From Streptacidiphilus sp. 4-A2 (GTDB lineage: Bacteria > Actinomycetota > Actinomycetes > Streptomycetales > Streptomycetaceae): DNA of 64,000 bases. Each line of letters starts with the position of its first letter. Position 1 is the stretch's first letter. The stretch is taken from the NCBI GenBank assembly GCA_014284505.1, contig JAAFYY010000001.1:434001-498000 (forward strand), given 5' to 3'. The position numbers and the translations under genes are program-made. The notes beneath the pieces were generated by a model. The model saw only the letters and a program-made list of their open reading frames with translations, did no database searches and had not been told where the DNA came from. Below are positions 2,044-30,612 of the stretch, one piece after another.

Positions 2044-3872
2044 TCACAGGGCGGTGCGGATCCGGCGGGTGCGCAGCCAGCTGTCGAGTTGCAGCACCAT
2101 CTCGGTGTCGGCCCGGCCCAGCCAGCCGCCACGGTCCAGCCGCCGCGGGTCGTCGGCGATCTGCCGGGCCTTGGGCAGGTCGAGCAGCGGCCGCACGGGC
2201 GCGTCCCGGTCGTCCAGGACCACCCGCAGCCGGTCGGCGAGCGACTGCTTGTACCCGGCGTGGTAGGTGATCGGGAACGGCACCTTGGGCCGGTCCAGGA
2301 CCGAGGCGGGCAGCAGGTCCCTGGCGATCGTCCGCAGCAGGCTCTTGTCGCGGCCGTCGAAGGACTTCATCCGCCAGGGGACGTTGTACAGGTAGCCGTA
2401 GAGGCGGTGGTCCGAGAACGGGAAGCGGACCTGGAGCCCGGCCGCGGCGGCCAGCCGCTCGGAGTGGTTGACCGCCTGCTCGTAGAGCCGGGTCATGTGC
2501 AGGTGGTCGATCTCGCGGGCACGCCGGTCGTCGGCGGGGGCGCCGGGCAGGTGCGGCACCTCCTGCCGGGCCTCCTGGTAGCGCTCCGCGCAGAAGTCGG
2601 CGAAGCCGATGTCGCGCAGCAGGCCCTGGTCGAAGAGGTCGTTGCCGATGCCGTTGGCCAGCCCGAAGGCCTGGGCGCGTTCGATCCAGGGAAAGGTCCG
2701 GTGCTCGGTCGAGGCGCGTTCCTCCTCGCTGATCAGGCCGCCGAACACGGCGTCGGCGGCCTCGCCGCTGAGCGCCACCGGGGTGTGCGCGGCGACCTGG
2801 CGGTAGAACAGGTAGGGCGTCAGGTTCTTGTCGCCGAAGGGTGAGGGGAAGTCCTTGGCGGCCAGGACCGCGTCCAGGGTCCGCCGGTCGGTGAGCGTGG
2901 CCGGGTCGACCAGGATCTCCCGGTGGTCGCAGCCCAGCTGCTCCACCACTGCCTGGGCGAAGGGCCGGTCGGGGACGGAGGCGGCGGTGTCGCCGAAGGA
3001 GACGGTGAACGTCCTGGGCGCGGCCCCGGTGCGCTCGGCGACCAGACCGGTGAGCGCGCTGGAGTCCAGGCCGCCGGAGAGCAGCACGGCGGCCGGACGG
3101 GCGTCGGCCTCGCGCGCGATCGCCTCGTCCAGCAGTCCGCGGGCGGTGCTGATCGTGGCGGGCAGGCCCTCGGTGTGCGGGCGGGCCTGAAGTGCCCAGT
3201 ACCGGTGCTCGCTCACACCGTCCGGGCGCAGCCGGACTAGGTGGGCGGGCCGGACCTCGCGTACCGCGCGCAGTACGGAGTGGCCGGGGCGGCGTACCTG
3301 GGCGAGGGCCGAGCACAGTCCCTGGGCGTCGAGTTCGTTGTCGACCAGCGGGTGCGCGGCCAGCGCGAAGGTCTCGGAGGCGAAGAGGGCGCCGTCGGGC
3401 AGCGGCAGATAGCTGAGCGGTTTGACGCCGAAGCGGTCCCGGCAGAGCACGAGTTCACTGGCTTCCGGGTCCCACAGGGCGAAAGCGAACAGCCCCTCCA
3501 GGCGCTCGGCGACGGCGCAGCCCCAGCGCAGATAGCCGTGCAGCACCAGGTCGGCGTCCGTGTCGAGGGCACCGGCGCGGTGGTCCGCGGCGAGGGCGGA
3601 GCGCAGTTGCGCGGTGTTGTAGAGCACGCCGTCGAAGGTGATCGCGGCGATCACGCGGCCGTGTTCCCGGGCCACGGCGGGCTGCGCTCCCGGGGCTCCC
3701 GGCGCTCCCGCGGGGCCTGCGCGTCGGCGCTGTGGCCGAGCAGGGCGTGCGGGCTGTGCCACTGCCGGTCGCCGTGGCCGCCGCGGGTGAGCCGGGAGGT
3801 CATCGCGGCGGCGAGGTCGCTGTGCTGGGTGAGGTCACGGCCGCGGTCTACCCAGCCGGTGATCCCGGACAT
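2044..3872 (-). CDS. Asparagine-synthetase-like amidotransferase with Ser at the glutaminase position (frameshifted)
   Basis: The protein has the two-domain layout of AsnB: an N-terminal Ntn-type glutaminase fold (MSGITGWVD) and a C-terminal ATP-pyrophosphatase domain with the PPi-loop SGGLDSS. In glutamine-dependent AsnB enzymes residue 2 is the nucleophilic Cys; here it is clearly Ser (ATG TCC). Family members without this Cys, such as beta-lactam synthetase and CarA, use an amine within the substrate or free ammonia instead. One frameshift lies near 3705. The total of about 609 residues is normal for the family. An AGGAG site precedes ATG 3872. Position between two NRPS genes suggests it forms an amide or lactam on the peptide product. 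The exact reaction is unknown. Confidence 0.85.
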
Positions 3873-3951
3873 GGTGCTCCTAGCTCTCGGATCGGTGGTT
3901 GTCGGGGAGGGGACGGCCGGCCCGGCTGGGGACCGGCCGTGGCGGTGGGGG

Positions 3952-6900
3952 TCAGCGCGGCGGTTCCAGCTTCTCCAGTGGGGTGCCGAGGTGCCCGGCG
4001 AAGTCTCCGAGCAGGGTGGTGAGCCATCGGCCCAGGTGCTGGATGTCCGCCGCGTCGAAGCGGTCGCCGCGGTGGGAGAGCCCGGCCCGCAGTCGTCCGT
4101 GGTCCTCGACGAAGGTGAGGGTGAGCCCGAATTTGGCCTCGTAGCCGAAGCGTTCGTCGGAGGGCAGCGGGGTCATCAGGCTGTCGCCGATGGGGACCGG
4201 TTCGGTGGACCTGAGGTTCAGGTTGAGCATCACGTCGGCGAACGGGGTGGTGGTGGCGCTGCGGGGTGGCGCGAGCCGGACGACGACCTCCTCCAGCGGC
4301 GCCCCGGGTGGTCGCCGAGGAGCAGGACCGTCTCGCGCATCGCGTCCAGCAGGTCGCCGAGGGTCTGGCCGGGTTCGCGCCGGGAGCGCAGGATCGCGGT
4401 GCCCAGGCGGGGGCCGAGCAGCCGGGGGAAGGGGCCGCCGGCGGAGTCGGCCACCGGTACCGCGAAGGTGAGGTCGGACCGGCCGGTCAGCAGGTGCAGG
4501 GCGGCGGCGACGGCGGTCGCGGCGATCATGAACCAGGAGCTGCCACGCCGGGTCCCGGCCTGGCGCAGCCGCGGCAGCAGGTCGTCCGGCAGCGGCAGGA
4601 CGAACGCCCCGTCCGGCTGGGCCGGGGAGGGCGGGGCCAGCGGCAGGCGGGCCGGGGCTCCGGCGAGGCGGGCGGCCCAGAAGTCGGCGGCCGCGGTGGC
4701 GGCGGCCCGGGTGCGCGGGTGCCGGGTGGCGGCGGCATAGTCCCGGTACTGGTCCGGCGGCGGCAGTTCGGTCAGGCCGCCGCGGGCGGCGGCGTGGTAG
4801 GCGGCGCCCAGTTCGGCCGCCAGTACCTGGACCGATTCGCCGTCGAGCACCAGGTGGTGGGCGCAGACCAGCAGGGCCTGGGTGTCCGGATCCAGTTCCA
4901 CCAGGGCGAAGCGGGCCAGCCGTCCGGCGGCGGGGTCGAACGGGGTCCGGGCCGCCTCCCGCAGCCAGCGTTCGACCGCTTGCGACCGCTCGGGCCCGGG
5001 CAGGTGGGCGAGGTCGTGCTGTTCCAGTGCGGGCGACCAGGGGCCTTCGATCCGCTGGACGAGCCGGCCGTCGTCGTCCAGGAACCGGGTGCGCAGGATT
5101 TCGTGCTGCGCCACCAGGCCCGCCAGGGACTTCTCCAGGGTGCCCGGGTCCAGCCGGCCCTGGATCCGCCAGGCCAGCACGATGTTGTAGACGGCGTGGC
5201 CCGGGTCCAGCCGCTCGGCCAGCCAGATGCGTTCCTGGAAGCCGGAGGCGGGGGTCTGCGGGGCTTGCGGCACGGGGCCGCCGACGGTCCGGGGCGGCTC
5301 GGCGGTGCCCAGGCGTTCGTCGATGAGCGCGGCCAGTTCGCCGAGCCTGGGGTGGTCGAACACGTCGCGCAGGGAGATCTGCACGCCCAGTTCCTCCTGC
5401 ACCTGGGTGACGAGCTGCCCGACCAGCAGGGAGTGGCCGCCGAGTTCGAAGAAGGAGTCCTGTGCCTGCGGCGGGTCCATGACCAGGACCTCTCCCCAGA
5501 CCCCGGCCAGTGCGTCCAGGCAGCCGGCGGGGTTCGCGGCGGCCGGAGCGGGGGCGGGGACGGAGCCTGCGGCGGGCGGGGCAGCCGGGCCGAGGAGTTC
5601 CAGCCGGGCGCCGGGCAGGGTCCTGGCGCGCAGCGCGGTCCGCAGTGCGCTGCCGCTGCCCGCGGGCAGCGGCAGCCAGGCGGTGCCCGCGGGCTGCCCG
5701 GCGGCCGGGTCGCCGCCGGTCGCGGACGCGGCCGGGCCGGTGCCCAGCCACAGCCGTCCGGGGACGCCGACGGGGGCCGGGTTGCCGTCCTGGTCGAGGA
5801 CGAGCGCGGTCACGCCCGTGGGCACGGCGGCGATGGTCCGGGCCGGCGCCGACGGCCGGTCGGGGGCGGTCAGTTCGTCCCAGCCGAAGGCGGGCCCGTC
5901 GGCCCGGACGGCGTCCGGGCCGGGCGGGGTGCGCTGCTCCAGCACGGCGGCCACGTCGGAGAGGCGGCGGTCCGGGTGGGCGCAGAGGTCCTCCAGCAGG
6001 GCCAGGTAGTCCGCGCCATCGCGGCGAGCAGGGTCGGCCCGACGGTGGCGCCCGGGTCCTTCCACAGGATGGTGAGGCCGCCCTTGTCCCCGCGCAGCAT
6101 CAGCGTGGCCCGGTAGTCCGCGGTGCTCTCCAGCGGGCGCAGGCTGAGCACGGCCGAGGTGCCGTGCGGGTCGGTCAGCCGCATCGCGCGCACGTCGACG
6201 TGCTCGTGCCGGCCGGCGTCCCACCACTGGAAGACCACTTGGTGGGTGCGGGCGTGGGCGTCGGGGCCGGTGAGTCCCGCGGCACGCAGGATGGCCGGCA
6301 GCGGCAGGTCGCCGTGGCGGACGCAGGCGCGCATGTCCTGGTGCAGCCGGGTGGTCACGGTGGCGTAGCTGTCGGATCCGGTGACGGTCTGCGCCACCGG
6401 CAGGGCGTTGACGAAGTAGCCGACCGTGGCCCTGGGTGCCCGGCAGGGAGCGCCCGTGGAACGGGGCGTTGGCCAGCAGCCGGTCCTGTCCGCTGTAGCG
6501 GCGCAGCAGCACGAAGAAGGCGGCGAACATCACCGTGAACCGGCTGACGCGCAGCTGTTGGGCGGCCTCGCCGACGCGGTGCAGCAGTTCGGGGTCGAGC
6601 GGGCCGCCGAGGACCTGGTACCGCGGCGGTTCCAGGGGCGCGGGCAGTTCGAAGGCGGGCGGTTCGAAGGCGGGCGGTTCGCCGCCGAGGAAGCCGCGCC
6701 AGTATTCCCGGTGCGGCTCGCCCTCAGGGCCTTCGGCCAGTGTGTGCGAGTGCTCGGCCGATGCCCGCAGGGCGGTCGCCTCGTCAGGTGCGCCGAGATC
6801 CTCCCCGCGCCAGGCGCGGGTCAGGCCGTGCAGCAGCGCCAGTACTGACGCCCCGTCACATACCAGGTGGTGAATGGCGATCAGCAGCAGAGTGCCGTCG

Positions 6901-7301
6901 CCGTGGTGGATCACGTCGGCGCGGATCAGCGGCCCGCGCCGCAGATCGAAGGGGCGCTGCCAGGCGTCCCGCGCGGCCTGTTCGGCCGGCTCGGCGGTGG
7001 TGTGTTCGCGCACCGGGACCGGCGGCGGCTCGGACCAGTCCAGCACCGGGGCGCGGCTGCCGGGGTCCAGGACCCGGCCGAGCAGGTGCGGGTGCCGCTC
7101 GGCGACCGCGGCAAGTGCGGCGCGCAGCCGTTCGGTGTCCAGGTCGCCCTGGACGTCAAAGGCCAGCGGAATGATGTGCGTCCACTGCTCCGGGTCGATC
7201 TGCCAGGCGACCCACATCGCCTGCTGTCCCACGGACAGCGGGATCCGGCCGACGCCGTCGGTCCCGGCCTCGGCCTCGACCTCGGCCTGAATGTCTGTCA
7301 T
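3952..7301 (-). CDS. Non-ribosomal peptide synthetase, C - vestigial A - PCP - C (frameshifted)
   Basis: The first condensation domain carries HHLVCDG at residues 144-150. It is followed by about 150 residues that keep only a short A-domain-like piece (VLDQDGNPAPVGVPGRLWLG), then a carrier domain (FFELGGHSL, Ser near residue 617) and a second condensation domain with HHLVLDG near residue 815. A complete A domain (about 500 residues) is absent, so the carrier needs charging in trans, most simply by the 337-1973 protein. Breaks near 6440 and 6025 cancel each other; another lies near 4310. ATG 7301 has AGCAGGAG upstream. It is the first gene of the leftward operon. Loss of A by misassembly is possible, but both edges of the stub read in frame. 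Confidence 0.85.
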
Positions 7302-8149
7302 GTTCTGCTCCTGCTGGGGAGATCGGTCGTCGAATGGCCGCCGTCGGGCGGTTCACCGCGGGAGAGCGCGGGTTGCAGCGGCAGTGGGCGGCGGGGTGCG
7401 GAGGGGCGGCGGCAGGGTACGGAGGGCGGCGAACCGGCGGGTGCGCCGGGGCTCGCGGGTCGTGGCGGGCCGCCCCGGGTACCCGGAGGGCCGCCTGGAG
7501 GCTCGGCGGCGGGCGGACGCCCGGCCGGCCCGCCGGGGCACGGACGATCACCGCGCGGCCTGCCCCACCGACCGCAGGCAGGCGGTTCGGGCCATACCGC
7601 CAATTCCGGCCGGACTGCCGGCGGTCAGGTTTGTCAGCAGGCCGCCGCGGGAATGCCAGCCCCTTTCCTCCGGCACCGGAACAGGATGCCCTGCGTTCCG
7701 GCGTTCATACTGCGGAAATACTGGACCAATCACGGGAAGATCAAGGGAAGCGTCCGCGGATCAACATAACTTCTCGGCCAGCGCAGCGCCAGGCCCACTT
7801 TGAGATGCGACGCGACCATATTTTTGGCCTGATTTCACCCTGTTTCATGGGAATCATCCGCCACTGTCCTGCGGTCGGGCGCGGCGGCAGCGTGCCTACC
7901 ACCATGAATGTCGGATCGCCAGGAATGCGGAACCGGTGACCTGCGGGGGTTGACTTCGTCGGCACCCGATCTCTTATGATCGAACGAGAATCGGCGATGA
8001 TCCGCAGCCGGACCGGCGCCACATTATTTGTGCACCACCGTAATTTCTGCACATAAGGGCAGGCGCTTTGCCCACAAGGGCAGATCCCGCTGTCACCGCG
8101 AGCAACCGGCGCGCCCCGCAGCGAAACCGATCCGAAGGAGAGTCAGCGG
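7302..8149. other. Divergent promoter region between the two NRPS transcription units
   Basis: No coding sequence is supported here. The right half (about 7680-8060) is clearly more AT-rich than the surroundings and holds the likely promoters. On the minus strand a TTGATC near 7744 followed by a TATTTC-like -10 is a weak candidate for the leftward operon. The rightward candidate is listed separately. Confidence 0.55.
7950..7980 (+). promoter_or_regulatory. Candidate promoter for the rightward biosynthetic operon
   Basis: TTGACT (7950-7955) and TATGAT (7975-7980) resemble -35 and -10 hexamers of the main sigma factor, with a somewhat long 19-base spacer. It lies about 170 bases before the first rightward NRPS gene, in the AT-rich part of the divergent region. 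Confidence 0.45.
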
Positions 8150-11100
8150 ATGTACGCTGCGCAGCTTTCCATCCCCGAGGCGCTGGCCGATCAGGCCCGG
8201 CGCACTCCGGACGCGACCGCCCTCCGGGACGCCTCCGGCCGGCTGACCTACCGGGAGCTCCAGGAGTGCGTCGCCCGCTTGGCCGGAGCCCTGCACGACC
8301 GGGGTGTGCGCCCGTCGGACGTGGTCGCCCTGCGGGCGGCGCGCGGCACCCCGGTGGTGATCGCCCTGCTGGGAGTGCTCGCGGCCGGGGCGTCCTGCCT
8401 GCCGCTGGATCCGGGCGAGCCGCCCGCGCGGACGGAGCACCTGCTGGCCGACACCGGCGCCGCCCTGGCCGTGGTGGACGAGGCGGGCGCGCAGCGGATG
8501 CCGTCGGCTCCGGGCGTCCGCGTCGTCGCTCTGGCCGAACTGCTGTCCCCGGGAGCCGGATCGGCCGCCGCACCGGGACCGGCACCGGCACCGGGACCGG
8601 CCGACGCGGGGCAGACCGCCTTCGTGCTGTCCACCTCCGGCACCACCGGCCGCCCCAAGGCCGTGGCGGTGCCCCACCGCGGGGTGGTCCGCCTGGTACG
8701 CGACCAGGACTTCGCCCGTTTCGGCCCGGACAGCACGGTGCTGCTGCACTCCCCGCTGACCTTTGACGCCTCGGTCATGGAGATCTTCGCCGCGCTGCTC
8801 AACGGCGGCGAACTGGTGGTCGCCCCGCCCGGACGGCTCTCCCCCGCCGACCTCGGCAAAGTGCTGCACGGCTTCTCGGTCGACACCCTCTACCTCACCG
8901 CGTCGCTGCTGCACCTGGTCGTGGACGAGGAGTTGGAGGCCCTGAGCGGGGTACGGCTGCTGCTCACCGGCGGCGAGTCGGCCTCCACCGAACATCTGGA
9001 GCGGCTCCGGCTGGCGCTGCCGCAGTGCCGGGTCGTCGAGGTGTACGGCCCCACCGAGAGCACCGTCATCAGCACCGTGTTCCCGATCGACCCGGACCAT
9101 CCGGTGCCCTCGCCGGTGCCCATCGGCCGGCCGATCGCCGGTGCGGAGGTGCACCTGATCGGCGGGGACGGACAACCGGTTCCCGACGGGGAGCTGGGCG
9201 AGCTGTGGCTGGGCGGCGTCGGGCTGGCCCACGGCTACCCGGGCAACCCCGGGCTGACCGCGCGGAAGTTCGTCCCCCATCCGGACGGCACGCCCGGCCG
9301 CCGCCTCTACCGCAGCGGTGACCTGGGCCGCCGCCGGGCGGACGGCGTCATCGTCTTCGCCGGACGGATCGACGACCAGATCAAGATCGAGGGACACCGG
9401 ATCGAACCCGGCGAGATCGAGCACGCCCTGCGCCGCCACCCCGCGGTCGCCGACGCCTTCGTCCAGGCCGTCCGGGAGCCGGGCACCGACCCGCGCCTGG
9501 TCGCCTACCTGGCGCCCGCCACCGGGGGCGAGCCGCTGGACACCCGGCAGGCACGCGAATACCTCTCGGCGCTGCTGCCCGAGTACCTGGTGCCGGGCCA
9601 GTACGTGTGGCTGGACCGCCTGCCGCTCAAGGAGAACGGCAAGGTCGACCGGCTCCTGCTGCCGCCGCCCGGCGCAGCCGCCGCCGCCCGGGCGCAGGAC
9701 CGGTCCGGGGCGCGGGAGCTCTCCGCGACCGAGCGGCAGGTCGCGGAGATCTGGTGCGAGGTGCTGCGGCTGGACTCGGCCGGGCCCGAGGACGACTTCT
9801 TCGCCTGCGGCGGCACCTCCATCGGCGCGTCCCGGGTGGTCGCCCGGATCCGCGCCCGGCTCGGCGCCGCGCTGCCGCTCGCGGTCCTGTTCGAAACCCC
9901 GACCCTGGCCCAGGTCGCCCGGGCGGTGGACATCGCCCGGGCGGCGGCAACAGGCCTGCGGCCGGCCGACTCACCCACCGAAAGCCCCGCGCCCGCAGGG
10001 AGTTCAGCGCCCCGCTCTCGCTTCAGCAACGGGCCCGGCTGGACGCCTACCGCGCCGCGGCCGACGGCCGCACCCAGCCGGTGCTCATCGTCCACCGACT
10101 GCGCGGCCCACTGGAGGTGCCGGCCCTGCGCTCCGCCCTGGACGCACTGACGGTCCGTCATGACATTCTGGCCACCCGCTATCCCGCCGACCGGAACCAG
10201 GACGGGGCGGCGATCGGTGTGGTCTCCTCGACGGCCGGCCGGCGCTGGCCGTTGGAGGTGCGGACGCTGCCGGCCGAGCGGCAGGACGCCGAGATCGAGG
10301 CCACCCGCGGCGAGCTGGGATTCGGCCGACTGCCCTTCGACCTGGAGCAGGGCCCGCCGGTCCGGGCCCTGCTGGTGACCGACGGCGGCAGCGAACACGT
10401 CCTGGCGCTGGCCGTGGACCATCTGGCCTTCGACGAGGTGTCCGCCGAGATCCTGGCCACCGAACTCGCCGTGCTCTACGCCCGGGCCCGGGGTCTGGCC
10501 GCGCCCGCCCTGGGCCCGGTGACCCAGTACCAGGAGTACGCCCGGATGCAGACCGAGCAGTACCGCGCCCCCGAGGGGCGGGCGGCCGTCGCCCGGGCCG
10601 TCGGTCAGCTGTACGACCGAGGATTCCGGCCGCCGCTGCCCCTGCCCGCCCACCCCGGCCACGATCCGCTGGCGACCGGCCGCACCGCGGCGGTCGGGCG
10701 CGCGCTGCCCCCGCTGGGGCCCGCGGTCGAGGCCCGGCTGGCCGCCCTGGGGATCACCCCCGCCTGCTTCTTCCTCGGCGTGCTGGCCCGAGCCGTGTCC
10801 TCGGTCGCCGACGGCGAACGCTTCGGCTTCCAGATCTCCCAGTCCGGGCGGCACCTGCCGGGGACGGACACCACCGTGGGCTGCCTCACCGAGCTGGCGT
10901 TCGTCGAGTTCGAGCGCGCCCGCTGCGCCGACCCCGGGGAACTGCTGGAGGACGCCCGGCGGCAGCTGGTCCGGCTGGTCACCGATCCCCCACCGCTGGC
11001 GGCGGCGCTGGAGCAGCTGCGCGCCGAGGGCCGGCGCGCCGAGGTGGCACGGCTGCGCAACCGCCCCTATCTGCTGTACCACCACCGCCAGCACACCCCG

Positions 11101-11328
11101 GCCGTCCCCTTCGCCCCAGGACTGCGGCTGACCCCGCTGCACCCCACCCCCCGCCCCGGCATCAGCCGGGAGCCCCGTCTGAACGTCGCCACCCGCTCGG
11201 GACCCGACGGAGGAGAAGTCTTGCTCGAATACGTCGAGGACGCCTACCCGCGCGACCTGGTCACCTCGATCGCCGAGGCCGTGGCCGGCGCCGTGGCCGA
11301 GCTGGGCGCATGGGCCGGCTCCCGGTGA
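8150..11328 (+). CDS. Non-ribosomal peptide synthetase, A - PCP - C (one frameshift)
   Basis: The A domain shows STSGTTGRPK, VYGPTES, YRSGD and the ENGKVD Lys motif. By eye its specificity positions read D-A-M-Y-L-G-V-V-I-K, suggesting an aliphatic amino acid. A carrier domain follows (FFACGGTSI, Ser near residue 557), then a C-like domain. In that last domain the HHxxxDG motif reads DHLAFDE: the second His and the Asp are kept, the first His and the Gly are lost. A module starting with A and ending with C suggests an initiating amino acid passed to another protein or released by the terminal C. A frameshift lies near 9995. GAAGGAG precedes ATG 8150. It overlaps the next gene at GTGA. Confidence 0.85.
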
Positions 11329-12628
11329 GCCGCCCGCGGATCCGTCCGGCGCGGGCCGGTGGCGCCAGGGTCCTGGCCGAGCGGGCCGCCCTGGCCGCCG
11401 TGCTCGGCTACACCGTCGTCGGCGCGCGCAACACCGTCCGCGCGGCCCGCTGGAAGCAGCAGGCCCGGTCGGGCTTCGCCGCCCGGCGGCCCCGGCTCCG
11501 GCCCGGCGCGGCCTACATCTACCTCCTGGTGCCCGCGCTGCGCGAACAGCGGGTCATCGAGCGGACCCTGGCGCACCTGCGCTCCCTGGACTACCCCGCG
11601 GACCGGTTCGAGATCATCGTCGCCGTCGACCACAAGGAGACCGGCGAACGCACCACCGCCCAAGTGGTGGAGGAGTACGCCAAACACCACCCCGACGGCG
11701 CGCCGGTCAGCGTCGTCAGCCACCGGGGGCCCGGGCAGCGCCGGAGCCTTCAGCTCAACGCCGCACTCGACCGCATCCGCGAGCGCGTCGAGGAGCGACG
11801 GCCGGAGAGCCGGATCCTGGTCGGCGTCTACGACGCCGACTCCCGCCCCGAGGCGCAGACCCTCGCCTACATCGACGACCAGGCCCGCCGCGACCCGGAC
11901 GCGACCGCGTTCCAGCAGACCGTCACCTATCTGGCCAACGCCTCCGAACTGTCCGGGCGCGGCCTGCTGCACGCCATGGCGGTCTACCAGAGCCTACTCC
12001 TTCGAGATACCCCGGCTGCTCGCCTCCCGAGACCGCCGGACGCGCCCCCCCGGTTCCCGCCGCAGTCGGCCACGGCGAGTTCTTCACCTGAGGGCACTAC
12101 AGGCGTCGGCGGGTTTCCCCGCACCGGGCCCTGCGACGGCATCCAGATCGCTTCGCGCTGTCGCGGGCGGCATCGCCATCCACCCGGTGCCCTTCGACGA
12201 CTCCTGCGAATCCCCCGCCAGCCACCGGACCCTGGTCCGCCAGCACACCTTCTGGTACTCCGGCAACCTCCAGTTCTTCCGCTGGTACAGCCCGCGCCGG
12301 TTCGCCCGGACACCCTCCTGCGGTGCTGAACCACACGCGCAAGAACATCCAGTGGCTGCTGCGCCCGGCGGTGTTCGCCCTGGCCACCGCGGGCGCTCAC
12401 CGCGCGTACGGCCGGCCGGGAGCGGCGGCGCTGACGGGGCTGCTCTACGGCTACTACGCGCTGGGCACCCAGGCGCTGCGGCGCAGCAGCCCGCCGGAGA
12501 CCGCCGCCGCGGCCCGCAGCGCCGGGGCACGGATCCCGCTGGCGGTGGCCTTCAAGTCGCTCGGCGCGGCCAACGCCGTGGGCCGGATGCTGCTCGGCAA
12601 GTCGACCTTCAACAAAGTAGAGCGCTAG
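11325..12628 (+). CDS. Membrane-associated family 2 glycosyltransferase (frameshifted)
   Basis: The N-terminal GT-A fold has the usual opening (LVPALREQRVIERTL), a nucleotide-sugar region and a YDADSRPE acidic motif of the DxD kind. After several frameshifts between about 11990 and 12320, the C-terminal part contains hydrophobic helices, so it probably acts at the membrane. GTG 11325 overlaps the NRPS stop (GTGA), implying translational coupling; an in-frame ATG lies at 11310. It probably adds a sugar to the peptide or to a lipid carrier. The acceptor cannot be read from sequence. The middle of the protein is unreliable because of at least three breaks. Confidence 0.75.
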
Positions 12629-27050: not shown

Positions 27051-28319
27051 ATGTCCTGGATACGACGGCGCACGCACGCCGAGCCGCCGGCGGGTCGTCT
27101 GCCCGACCTTGAGTTCCTCGCGCTGGTGCAGGCGAGCCTGGAGGAGTATGCGCCCGGGGTGACCCAGGGCACCGAACTCAAGGGCAATTCCCTGAGCAGT
27201 CCGCACGGTTGGGTGGTCGCCGTGGCACCGCCCCAGCACGGCGGCGACCAGCACTACGACGTGGTGGCGCTGCCGGATGTGAGCGTGCCCACGGATGTGC
27301 CCTGCTTCGTGGACTGTGTCGTGGCGATGGCCGAGGACCCCAGGCGGGCGGCCGACGCGTGGGTGCACACGGCCGGCGCCTGCATGCTGGAACTCCTGGA
27401 CCGGCACGGGCGCTTCGCGGACCACGCGGGCCCCGGGGACGCGCGTGGCATCCCCGGCTGGTACGCGATCGCCTCCGGCGCCGTCGGTATCGGCCTCGAC
27501 TCCGCCGAGAACCGTCGGCTGCAGTCGGCGGTGGTCGACGCGAACATCCTGCACCGCATCGCGGATTCCTTCACCGCGGACCTGGAACCGCTGTCCTTCA
27601 ACGGGATCAAGGTCTTCTACGGCGGGCAGCCCGGCGCGATGGTGGCCGAGGTCCGGATCAACGGGGAGCGCCACGAGGCGGCCTCGGCCGCGATGGCGGC
27701 ACTGGGCCTGCCCGGGCCCACGGCGTTCACGACAGTCCGCTACTACGCCCTGCTGCTGCCGGTCCCGGCTGACGGCGGGGAACCGGAGTTCCCGTCGACC
27801 CGCCTCGGCCTGGCTCACCACCACGACGCGGCCCACGGCCACGCCGGGCAGTCGGACCCGGAGCACCTCGGCGTGGACCTGGCCCTGCCCCACCTGATCG
27901 CCGAACTCTCCGCCGAGGAACGCAAGCAGCGCGTACGGGTCGACACCGGATCCCTCATGATTGCCGACGGGGTCGGCAACTTCCTCAAGGCCCGTCTGCC
28001 GATCCAGCTGACGGACGGACGAACTGTCGTCCACCGCGCCTGGTTCTACCTCTCCGCCCAGGTGATCGACGAGTTCACCGCCAGGCTCCGCAACGGAACC
28101 CTGACCGGATACCGCTTCACGGGCCTGCTGTGCAACGCCGTCGGCCCCTGGGGCGAGGAGCTGCTGCGCGCGCCGGTCGTCCTCGGCGGCCAGCAGGTCG
28201 ACGAGAACGGGTGCATCAGCTCCCCCGAGGTGATCGAGTCCGGCCACCCGCTCCTGAGCAAGGTGCTGCACGAGCGCTGGCCGGCACCGTTCGTCCTCGG
28301 CGAAGGCCGGTCCGAATAG
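27051..28319 (+). CDS. DUF6348-like protein of unknown function
   Basis: An intact 422-residue protein without signal peptide or membrane helix. The N-terminal half (from LALVQASLEEYAP, with TELKGNSL and GPGDARGIPGWYAIAS) resembles the DUF6348 family often found in Streptomyces; the C-terminal half repeats a similar alpha/beta pattern. The assignment is from memory of the family and is tentative. There is no clear ribosome binding site, but TAAGAT ends 7 bases before ATG 27051, so a leaderless transcript is plausible. It converges with the NRAMP-type gene. Confidence 0.6.
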   Translation: MSWIRRRTHAEPPAGRLPDLEFLALVQASLEEYAPGVTQGTELKGNSLSSPHGWVVAVAPPQHGGDQHYDVVALPDVSVPTDVPCFVDCVVAMAEDPRRAADAWVHTAGACMLELLDRHGRFADHAGPGDARGIPGWYAIASGAVGIGLDSAENRRLQSAVVDANILHRIADSFTADLEPLSFNGIKVFYGGQPGAMVAEVRINGERHEAASAAMAALGLPGPTAFTTVRYYALLLPVPADGGEPEFPSTRLGLAHHHDAAHGHAGQSDPEHLGVDLALPHLIAELSAEERKQRVRVDTGSLMIADGVGNFLKARLPIQLTDGRTVVHRAWFYLSAQVIDEFTARLRNGTLTGYRFTGLLCNAVGPWGEELLRAPVVLGGQQVDENGCISSPEVIESGHPLLSKVLHERWPAPFVLGEGRSE

Positions 28320-28347
28320 CCCCCGGCGTCCGGTCACGGGCCCGGGT

Positions 28348-29658
28348 TCAGAATCCGAGCGTCTGGGGGACCATGTACAGCCGAAGGCCATCACGACCAC
28401 GCACAGGGTGGTGACGGTCCAGCGGTAGGCCCCGCGCATCCGGTGCTCGTCCGGCAGGCACTTCGCCTCCAGCGCCAGCAGGAACCGAGCACGATCGGCA
28501 GCAGCAGCGAGTTCATGACCTCGCAGTCGACGGCCAGGCTGACCAGGTCGACGCTGGCCAGCACCAGCACCGCGCCGATGATGTGGAGAACGCGTAGGTG
28601 ACGTAGAACTTGAGGTTGCGTCGGCTGATCCGCTCGTCGAGGCTGTGCTTCCAGCCCAGGACCTCGGCGATCCCCCAGGAGCCGGCCAGGGAGACGACCA
28701 GCGCGGCAACCAGGGCTCCGCCCAGGATGGAGGCGCCGACCAGGATCCTGGACGTCCCCGAGCCCAGGAAGGGGTCAAGTGCGCCCGCGATCTGGCCCAC
28801 GTTGTCGAGGGCCGCGCCGGTGTCCTTGCGTCCGACGGTGGCAGCCAGGGTGATCACCACCACGATCATGATGCCCTGGGTCAGCACCGTGCCCACGGCC
28901 GTGTCCCAGCGGGCCTGACGCATCGCGGTGACGGCGAGCTTGCGCTGGACCACGGCACTCTGCTGGTAGAAGATCATCCACGGCATGATCACCGCGCCGA
29001 TGTTCGCGGCGAGCAGGTACACGTACTGGGTGTTGTGGAACGGGAACGTGGCGAAGCCGTGCAGCAGGTCGCCGACTTTGGGGTGGGCCAGCACCATGGC
29101 CGCGACGAAGGCCAGTTCGGCCAGGCCGATGGCGATCCCGATCCGCTCGGCGCGCCGGTAGCTGCCGGTGAAGGCCAGACCGACCAGGAACGCGGTGGTC
29201 GTCGGCACGGTCACCCACTTGGAGATCCCGAACAGCTCCCCGACGCCGGCCACCCGGCGAACTCGGTCAGCAGCGCGCCGACCGCCGACAGCAGCAGGGT
29301 GGCGGCGGAGACCAGACCCCATGTGAAGCCGAACCGCTCCCGGATCAGCGTCCCGTGCCCCTTGCCGGTGACGATCCCCAGCCGGACGGTTATCTCCTGC
29401 ACCGCGAACAGCACCGGCATCAGCACGACCTGCGGGAGCACCATGGCGGTAGCCGAACTGGTCACCGGACTGGGCGGCGGTGATGATGCAGCCGGCGTCG
29501 GTGTCGGCCAGCATCACGATCAGGCCCGGCCCCCACACGGCCAGCATTCCGGCAATCATCCACTGACGCCTGCTCAGAGAGAAACGGCGGCGCGGCCCCC
29601 CTGGTCTGTCCGGCGCCGGGGCCGACGTCGACGTGGGCGCGGAGAGTTCAGCGGACAC
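28348..29658 (-). CDS. NRAMP-related divalent metal transporter (frameshifted)
   Basis: A polytopic membrane protein of about 436 residues in the NRAMP superfamily, recognised by DTDAG..ITAAQSG in TM1 and the QEITVRLGIVTGKGHG loop. The DPGN metal-binding motif of classical Mn/Fe NRAMPs is replaced by DTDAG (residues 52-56), and the TM6 motif usually written MPH reads IMPWMIFYQQ. Its metal therefore cannot be assumed to be Mn or Fe. Frameshifts lie near 29470, 29260, 28590, 28485 and 28380; after the last the protein ends VPQTLGF. GTG 29658 is preceded by GAGGAGG. A cobalamin-type riboswitch and an iron-box-like site lie in the leader, suggesting cobalt or iron-linked control. Confidence 0.82.
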
Positions 29659-29756
29659 TGGGCATCCTCCTCGGGATGCTCACAGGTTCGGGGCCCTGGA
29701 CGCACCCGGCCGCAGCCCGCGTCCGGGCCGCCTTCCTGCGAGGCGAGCTCGGCGGA

Positions 29757-29860
29757 TGCGACGCCAGGCGGCCGGACTCGTCCCGTACAGGGGCTTCACC
29801 GTTGCGGGACAGAGCCGGATTCCCACCGGACTTCGCTGACGCGGCACCGTCTCCGCAGGG
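29757..29860 (-). promoter_or_regulatory. Cobalamin-type riboswitch in the leader of the NRAMP-related gene
   Basis: Read on the minus strand, the segment contains a core typical of B12 riboswitches: GCGAAGTCCGGTGGGAATCC (29836-29817), then CTGTCCCGCAACGGTGA, and later CGAGTCCGGCCGCCTGGC, which corresponds to the 3' element usually written GAGTCAGGA-ACCTGCC. GGTGCC at about 29849 resembles the opening strand. The middle is short, as in compact actinobacterial variants. It lies 100 bases upstream of the GTG, so it could block translation or terminate transcription when cobalamin is plentiful. I identified it by consensus only; a covariance-model search would settle it. Confidence 0.7.
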
Positions 29861-29878
29861 GCGAAGACCGAGCCAGAC

Positions 29879-29897
29879 TAAGGTTAGGCGTACCTTC
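29879..29897 (-). promoter_or_regulatory. Iron-box-like DtxR-family operator
   Basis: The 19-mer TAAGGTTAGGCGTACCTTC agrees at 14 of 19 positions with the iron box TTAGGTTAGGCTCACCTAA bound by DtxR/IdeR/DmdR1 repressors. It lies just upstream of the riboswitch and overlaps the likely -10 region of the leftward promoter (TTGCAG about 20 bases further out). Repression of the metal transporter by Fe or Mn is the natural reading. Confidence 0.55.
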
Positions 29898-30036
29898 TCT
29901 GCAATACTGCGCAGCTGAACAGGTATCGAGGCCTCTGCGAATCCCGTCACACCGACCCCGCGCCTGCCGAACCACCCCACCGACCATCCGTCGTCCGCGC
30001 GCTCCACCGGTGCCGTCCGAGCCGGCAACCCGCGCG

Positions 30037-30612
30037 TTACCGCCTCGGGCCCGCCGCGCCGTACCACGCGGTGCCGGTCACCAGCAGGGCCAGCGCGGTC
30101 CCGGTGGACGGCGCGGTGTCCGCCGGAAAGATCATCCAGCTGGCCACCTCCCCTGCGGTGCCGCTCATGGGCGGGACGAGAACGGTGAACGCGAGCCAGC
30201 CGGTCGGCAGGGTCCAGGCGAACGGTGCCCCGCAGAGCACCGCCCCGAGCGCGGCCAGGCCCGCCAGGCCCACGCCGTCCCTGACTACGACCTCGACCGG
30301 GGCGAGCTCCGCCCCCATCGCCTGGGCCGCCAGCAGAGCCGCTCCGGTGACCGCACCGATCAGCAGCACATGCGCTGCCCGGCGGGGCATCCAGCGGATC
30401 GCGGCCGTCCGCTCCAGCACGGCATCCCGCCCGTCGAGCCCGACCGAACCGGCCGCCACCATCGCGGTGAGCACCAGAGCCGTCGTCCCCAGGTCCGTCG
30501 CGCCCTGGCCGCCGCCCTGGTTGCAGACCCATGCCGCCAGTGCGACGGCCAGGACCGCGACGGCCGAGGCGGGCACCTGCCGTGACCGCGTGTACAGAAT
30601 CAGCCACCTCAT
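30037..30612 (-). CDS. Small ABC-exporter-associated membrane protein
   Basis: An intact 191-residue protein with about five hydrophobic helices (for example SAVAVLAVALAAWVC and TTALVLTAMVAAGSVGL). It has no ATPase or enzyme motif. Its start overlaps the stop of the large permease gene by four bases, so it is the last gene of the sigma/anti-sigma/ABC operon and probably a second membrane subunit of that transporter. No closer family is recognised. Confidence 0.65.
   Translation of the reverse strand: MRWLILYTRSRQVPASAVAVLAVALAAWVCNQGGGQGATDLGTTALVLTAMVAAGSVGLDGRDAVLERTAAIRWMPRRAAHVLLIGAVTGAALLAAQAMGAELAPVEVVVRDGVGLAGLAALGAVLCGAPFAWTLPTGWLAFTVLVPPMSGTAGEVASWMIFPADTAPSTGTALALLVTGTAWYGAAGPRR

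Follow-up and report, generated by a model that had tools for sequence, protein, structure and literature searches.

Which metal does an NRAMP-related transporter import when its gene lies behind both an iron-type operator and a cobalamin-type riboswitch, and under which conditions is such a gene made? A locus of Streptacidiphilus sp. 4-A2 raises this question. It lies in a 64,000-nucleotide stretch of DNA that spans positions 434001-498000 of its contig and was analyzed as a whole (here called the window). The initial annotation had placed a minus-strand B12-type core between a DtxR-type operator and a GTG start, and both this anatomy and its coordinates proved correct (29722-29850, 29879-29897, and 29658, respectively; Table 1).

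Table 1. Control elements and gene of the NRAMP locus, in window coordinates
Feature	Position	Strand	Remarks
-35-like hexamer TTGCAG	29899..29904	-	18 bases upstream of the -10-like hexamer; aligned with the TTG..-type sequence in NiCoT leaders
Iron box (DtxR/IdeR/DmdR-type operator)	29879..29897		17/19 to TWAGGTWAGSCTWACCTWA; in the promoter spacer, touching the -10
-10-like hexamer TAGTCT	29875..29880	-	position of the TAGGCT/TACGCT-type sequence in NiCoT leaders
Cobalamin (AdoCbl-type) riboswitch aptamer, P3 to L13	29722..29850	-	RF01482, window-free covariance model, pair counts
Expression platform GAGCATCCCGAGGAGGATGCCCAGTGTC	29654..29681	-	6-bp hairpin GCATCC/GGATGC over part of the ribosome site, plus GTG start
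GTG start codon	29656..29658	-	same place as the GTG of NiCoT leaders
NRAMP-family transporter gene, several frame changes	28347..29658	-	frames -2, -1, and -3; 3′ end approximate

The cobalamin models of Rfam bore out the riboswitch. In a permissive scan of 29500-30050, RF01482 gave a significant match to the aptamer at 29722-29848 on the minus strand (E, 6.7e-7), though its score of 44.2 bits lies below the curated cutoff of 50. RF00174 was likewise below its cutoff at the aptamer (25.9 versus 31.5 bits), and no family reached its curated Rfam cutoff anywhere in the 64-kb window. RF01482 matches with an E value of at most 5e-4 were found in 37 of 41 genomes (own included), and only 3 of the 41 exceeded the cutoff, so a subthreshold score is normal for this lineage. 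The element therefore matches clan CL00101 (RF01482/RF00174) significantly in sequence and structure, at a score under the curated cutoff. The related leader of a NiCoT permease gene in genome G176 exceeds the RF00174 cutoff, at 35.1 bits. Two further covariance models were built, R1 from 16 riboswitches with the window among them and R2 from 15 with the window excluded. Input was chosen by a core pattern, which three riboswitches (L005, L147, and L151) missed, and L124 was omitted as a copy of L113; R1 recovered all four of these at 72.6 to 120.3 bits. R2 scored the window riboswitch at 92.6 bits (E, 9e-23 under a rough calibration) and the runner-up position in the 64 kb at 9.5 bits. The scores below the curated Rfam cutoffs would suit a chance resemblance with no riboswitch at all, but 92.6 bits from a model that does not contain the window sequence makes this exceedingly improbable.

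The structure was assessed over ten leaders, for which 26 pairs (P3, P4, P5, P6, and the platform hairpin) were written by hand. Of the 260 cells, 99.2% were paired, against 35 to 57% when the structure was slid by 1 to 3 columns, a control in which it is favored because it was drawn from the same ten sequences. Double-sided changes were present in 4 pairs (shuffled mean, 1.5), a number equaled in 4 of 500 shuffles, and the percentage paired and covariation score were equaled in none of the 500. The number of pair types in the ten leaders was not above that in shuffles (200/500). The ten leaders thus have the conserved helices with compensatory changes of a cobalamin riboswitch, and the window retains 25 of the 26 named pairs.

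The platform hairpin GCATCC/GGATGC is present in all ten leaders, with A-U replaced by G-U in two, and is seen in the local minimum-energy fold of 29654-29740 (z, -2.98). This hairpin encloses GAGGA, part of the ribosome site, and by eye it is not followed by a T run, which makes translation control the likely mode of the window riboswitch. L13 (CGCAGG) is complementary to CCUGUG just 5′ of the hairpin, imperfectly so in 3 of the 10 leaders as read from the alignment, and CCUGUG is a possible switching partner of L13. Folding of the whole leader was rejected as proof of the B12 fold; its minimum-energy fold differs, and z is only -1.83.

Upstream of the aptamer, TTGCAG and TAGTCT would form the promoter, and the iron box, TAAGGTTAGGCGTACCTTC, stands in their spacer, so that the riboswitch lies between the box and the gene. 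The published iron-box consensus is TTAGGTTAGSCTAACCTAA (PMC8464063). As a 19-bp palindrome near the putative promoter, the window site is a candidate DtxR/IdeR operator by sequence. With 17 of 19 positions matching TWAGGTWAGSCTWACCTWA, it is the sole match with at most 3 mismatches in the 64 kb (expected, 0.00) and one of 5 sites with at most 2 mismatches in the 9.05-Mb genome, where the reversed control gave 0. One of the other four boxes precedes an FTR1 iron permease gene, and another lies between a DAHP synthase gene and the gene of a BFD-like ferredoxin, the latter being the one that it precedes; the remaining two had no telling neighbor by Pfam. Under a stricter, nondegenerate consensus, the window site scores 14/19, which was equaled in 1 of 100 shuffles. 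The genome has one match to the DtxR-type C-terminal domain. This match and the same 19-bp box recall the IdeR/DmdR1 iron regulon of actinobacteria (PMC8464063, PMC12161575), for which no NRAMP gene with a B12 riboswitch was found in the literature searched. Since Co(II) served as an Fe(II) mimic for IdeR (PMC8464063), the iron repressor itself might sense cobalt. Taken singly, the riboswitch and the iron box are each very likely real as control elements.

Iron boxes are common before relatives of the gene. The NRAMP subfamily occurs in actinobacteria, mycobacteria included, and in lactobacilli. Boxes were sought 5′ of the gene in 77 of 87 NRAMP sequences; the other ten (L027, L030, L038, L040, L043, L049, L084, L085, L086, and L120) were dropped because no in-frame GPG motif was read or there was too little sequence. 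Two genomes were probably counted twice, as L119 and L120 are probably the genomes of L054 and L038, and L094 is L007 again. A box of at least 15/19 was found in 28 of the 56 nonlactobacillar members (window included) and in none of the 21 lactobacillar ones; for boxes of at least 14/19 that were unequaled in 40 shuffles, the counts were 35 of 56 and 0 of 21. Of the 28 boxes of at least 15/19, 26 were 91 to 272 bases upstream of the GPG motif; the L007 box was 315 bases upstream, and the window box was 365. The iron box is thus widespread in the subfamily and, judging from this distribution, probably the older element there. L020 and the other lactobacillar loci (21 scanned) belong to the same subfamily and have the DTDAGC metal site without an iron box.

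The gene product belongs to the SLC11/NRAMP family. Its longest clean piece matched PF01566 (E, 9.5e-41), the only Pfam family in the piece scanned, where none of the CbiMNQO, NiCoT, HupE, or CbtAB type was found. The canonical NRAMP metal site in TM1 is DPGN. The window protein has DTDAGC instead, and [DN]TD[AV]G[CS] was read in 78 of the 87 sequences (DTDAGC in 35, DTDAGS in 25, DTDVGS in 15, and NTDAGC in 3), with 9 not readable. The selectivity methionine of TM6 is retained (MPWM in the window; Met in 86 of 87 sequences). The solved structure closest to the L007 protein is that of EleNRMT, 7qia (E, 1.6e-43; runner-up, 2.5e-10), which has Ala at this position, and the window protein is in this respect no NRMT magnesium transporter. 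NRMTs swap the TM6 methionine for alanine, and methionine favors transition metals (PMC8806188). Because this methionine is retained, unlike in NRMTs, the window transporter is more likely a transition-metal importer than a magnesium importer. A precedent for reading substrate from an RNA element exists in the M-box riboswitches before Nramp-related genes, which predicted magnesium transport (PMC4072509). Those NrmT/NRMT genes are, like the window gene, NRAMP relatives under a metal-hinting riboswitch, with magnesium as ligand and alanine in the site, whereas the window combines a cobalamin-class riboswitch with the selectivity methionine.

The gene is frameshifted in the assembly. Protein matches fall into frames -2, -1, and -3 and break near 28585 and 28484; around 29445-29245, the residues read in frame -2 are unrelated. 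At least three frames are thus needed to cover the protein, and no subfamily member was found in the 13 other genomes of the genus (E ≤ 1e-60). Both facts would be expected of a decaying pseudogene whose leader was acquired by chance recombination. However, two frames are likewise needed for the NiCoT gene of this genome (a third short match falls in its leader), and completeness is 76.5% for this genome against 98 to 100% for the 13 congeners, so assembly indel errors are the likelier cause. The retained riboswitch pairs and the identity of 66 to 91% between the protein pieces and L007 also speak against decay, which we regard as rather unlikely. A gene for a DUF6348 protein (PF19875) lies at 27051-28319 on the plus strand, convergent with the NRAMP gene.

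The origin of the leader was apparent from its relatives. From the promoter-like hexamers through the aptamer and the ribosome-site hairpin to the start codon, the sequence is a single block with homology to the leaders of NiCoT (NicO) nickel/cobalt permease genes. The genome carries further cobalamin-type riboswitches, one of them, at 3.64 Mb, upstream of its own NiCoT (NicO) gene. Local alignment to the window leader scored 227 for the leader of this gene and 267 for the G176 NiCoT leader, against shuffle maxima of 76 and 75 (500 shuffles each). The 28-base leader end GAGCATCCCGAGGAGGATGCNCAGTGTC was searched with at most 2 mismatches in 394 family genomes, sampled evenly out of a larger group; it had 10 sites in 9 genomes and none when read backwards. 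By tblastn, a NiCoT gene stands behind nine of these sites and the window NRAMP gene behind the tenth. PF03824 (NicO) was checked for two of the nine, those of G176 and G019 (E, about 1e-85). Identity between the window leader and the nine NiCoT leaders ranges from 75 to 79%. A quick tree placed the window leader on a long branch as sister (support, 0.88) to a group with the leaders of the genome's own NiCoT gene and three congeners, and the acquisition of a NiCoT-type leader is therefore probably an old event. That the leader was recently copied from the NiCoT gene of this genome was unsupported, the identity of 76% to that leader being no closer than that to all nine.

The window locus thus has the promoter region, aptamer, platform hairpin, ribosome site, and GTG of NiCoT genes (HoxN/NhlF type, PF03824) under adenosylcobalamin riboswitches; it differs in that its gene is an NRAMP relative and its promoter spacer holds an iron box, at 17/19. 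The best 19-mer in the nine NiCoT leaders matched the iron box at 9 to 13 of 19 positions; NiCoT promoters thus do not usually include it. One of the NiCoT leaders (L157, in G176) has a 13/19 iron-box-like site in its promoter region, 221 bases before the platform; the same genome also holds an iron-boxed NRAMP gene.

The nearest NRAMP relative, L007 of genome G028 from the same family, has both CCCGAGGAGGATGCC and an AGTG start in common with the NiCoT platform (L007:2568-2587). Within 853 kb of sequence, the 13-mer CCCGAGGAGGATG was found only in NiCoT leaders and in two NRAMP leaders, those of the window and L007. Since this 13-mer and the start are common to all three, the data hint that the capture predates the split of the window and L007 lines and that L007 then lost the aptamer. 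Beyond the ribosome site, the likeness of the L007 leader was within shuffles (54 versus a 95% point of 56). We tentatively suggest, as possible rather than probable, that a NiCoT promoter-riboswitch-ribosome-site cassette was captured and now precedes the gene of an unrelated transporter that carries the same metal. The NRAMP would then represent an unrecognized class of cobalt importers under B12-riboswitch control, with an iron operator formed or kept inside the promoter, and the gene would compute low iron AND low B12.

Among relatives, the iron box and the riboswitch were distributed differently. Of 394 family genomes, 4 contained a member of the NRAMP subfamily (E ≤ 1e-50), as did 5 of 394 genomes of the class (E ≤ 1e-55); both counts include the genome of the window. 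In named genomes (the best 80 of 477 relatives), the best match was in Streptomyces sp. ICBB 8177, with 84% identity over query residues 1-219; L007 is also 84% identical. Model R1 was searched at an E value of up to 1 against 90 sources (the window, L007-L086, L094-L098, and L119-L122), including loci with scant upstream sequence (almost none in L030 and little in L085), and a riboswitch adjoining an NRAMP gene was found only in the window. The second-best match (E, 4.7e-5) was the cob operon of G176 in L097, and eight weaker ones had E values of 0.011 to 0.71; the one in L079 was discarded, being located beyond the gene and lacking a cobalamin core. All Rfam models at an E value of at most 0.01 gave no cobalamin match in nine loci including L007-L011, and in the L007 leader no aptamer was found even with Infernal filters off (best, 2.3 bits). 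Conservation in related genomes, which the initial annotation had looked to for support, thus held for the iron box (28 of 56 nonlactobacillar members) and failed for the riboswitch (window only among the 90 sources). L011:1-71 holds a cut-off c-di-GMP-I-GGC riboswitch-like match, at 34.8 bits against a cutoff of 59.

One relative is linked to B12 synthesis by position. In G176, the NRAMP gene (61% identical) is on the same strand directly after genes for CbiB, CobQ, a chelatase subunit, CobO, and CobB (Pfam checked), in locus L097 (G176:C1:5722500-5736500), 3464-11742, minus strand. This cob operon stands behind an RF00174 riboswitch (69.8 bits), and the NRAMP gene has its own iron box between it and cobB. 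Tblastn with the five G176 proteins against 99 sequences (E ≤ 1e-8; flanks of at most 3 kb; L119-L122 left out) found no cob genes beside other NRAMP relatives; the only matches were in G176 (L095/L097) and in L001, the cob locus of the window's own genome. Many cobalt importers have been identified via B12 operons or AdoCbl riboswitches, and Table 1 of the 2021 review that describes this has no NRAMP among cobalt uptake systems (PMC7689651). Cobalt transport by mammalian Nramp1/2 is the title of a reference cited in PMC4072509.

Other genes behind cobalamin riboswitches were also seen. In mycobacterial L105 and L106, these riboswitches precede genes for FhuF-type 2Fe-2S proteins (PF11575 in L105; L106 is 70% alike), another point where iron and B12 meet. 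In L099, L111, L115, L116, and L127, they precede genes for alpha-alpha barrel proteins resembling prenyltransferases and squalene cyclases (Pfam for L099 and L111; the other three resemble L111). These proteins appear secreted and might be corrinoid binding, with a transcobalamin fold.

The explanation that we favor, and hold with moderate confidence, is that the transporter imports cobalt and iron and that its gene is expressed only at low iron and low B12. An NRAMP gene from an often iron-repressed subfamily would carry the NiCoT promoter-riboswitch-ribosome-site block. A DtxR/IdeR-type repressor, when loaded with iron, would act at the promoter to block transcription, and with adenosylcobalamin (or another corrinoid) the leader would adopt a fold in which the ribosome-site hairpin stays closed, stopping translation. 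The gene would then be made only when both iron and B12 are low, and the transporter would most likely supply cobalamin synthesis with Co(II) while also importing Fe(II), an ion that NRAMPs handle. From the sequence, we infer the direction of control, the ligand, cobalt as a substrate, and a working gene. Dual control in a working gene is quite probable; on cobalt as a main substrate, the evidence appears evenly balanced. The initial annotation had derived cobalt uptake from dual control. Its pairing of operator and riboswitch stood (17/19 and E of 6.7e-7, respectively), and both the homology between this leader and NiCoT leaders and the cob-operon neighbor in one relative raise the likelihood of cobalt uptake, an iron or manganese role being possible as well. 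Several observations count against this explanation: no other NRAMP locus among the 90 sources has an adjoining riboswitch, the nearest relative has no aptamer, cob genes flank NRAMP in G176 alone among the loci searched, and the gene is frameshifted in the assembly. The iron box speaks for iron and against the cobalt reading. In addition, cobalt import by an NRAMP would be redundant in a genome that already encodes a NiCoT behind a riboswitch of its own.

B12 control could also be read without cobalt uptake. An iron or manganese importer might be made at B12 shortage to supply metal to B12-independent stand-in enzymes such as class I ribonucleotide reductase. A ribonucleotide reductase large chain does stand behind cobalamin riboswitches in the family (Pfam for L102), and we take this enzyme to be the B12-independent class I. 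The wide occurrence of the iron box in the subfamily and the fact that NRAMPs are mostly iron and manganese importers (PMC8806188) would suit such a role. The leader, however, belongs to the cobalt/nickel permease type and one relative (G176) sits behind a cob operon, which leaves this reading unlikely. Alternatively, the riboswitch may guard against leakage of cobalt through a promiscuous iron importer when B12 is plentiful. NRAMPs are promiscuous transporters, and in this subfamily the iron box is common and the riboswitch present in one member only. This candidate reading, which we consider rather unlikely, makes the same regulatory prediction as cobalt and iron import under dual control.

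MntR, the regulator of Salmonella mntH, is presumably a DtxR-family repressor. Salmonella mntH, controlled by MntR, OxyR, and a manganese riboswitch, is thus likewise an NRAMP gene under a DtxR-family repressor and a riboswitch (PMC9315381); there, repressor and riboswitch both sense manganese, whereas the window would combine iron and a cobalt cofactor. The initial annotation had known of no described case of the combination proposed for the window locus, and in the open-licence papers searched we found no description of a B12 riboswitch and DtxR-type operator before an NRAMP gene. Nramp and MntH are also absent from the main text of an RNA-regulon survey (PMC3766115).

The substrates of NRAMP relatives are hard to infer from sequence, and a leader homologous to those of NiCoT genes gives a testable prediction of cobalt import for this subfamily. 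If true, the locus would clearly exemplify how a riboswitch can pass from one gene to an unrelated one as a ready-made control cassette, with iron and B12 status meeting at a single gene.
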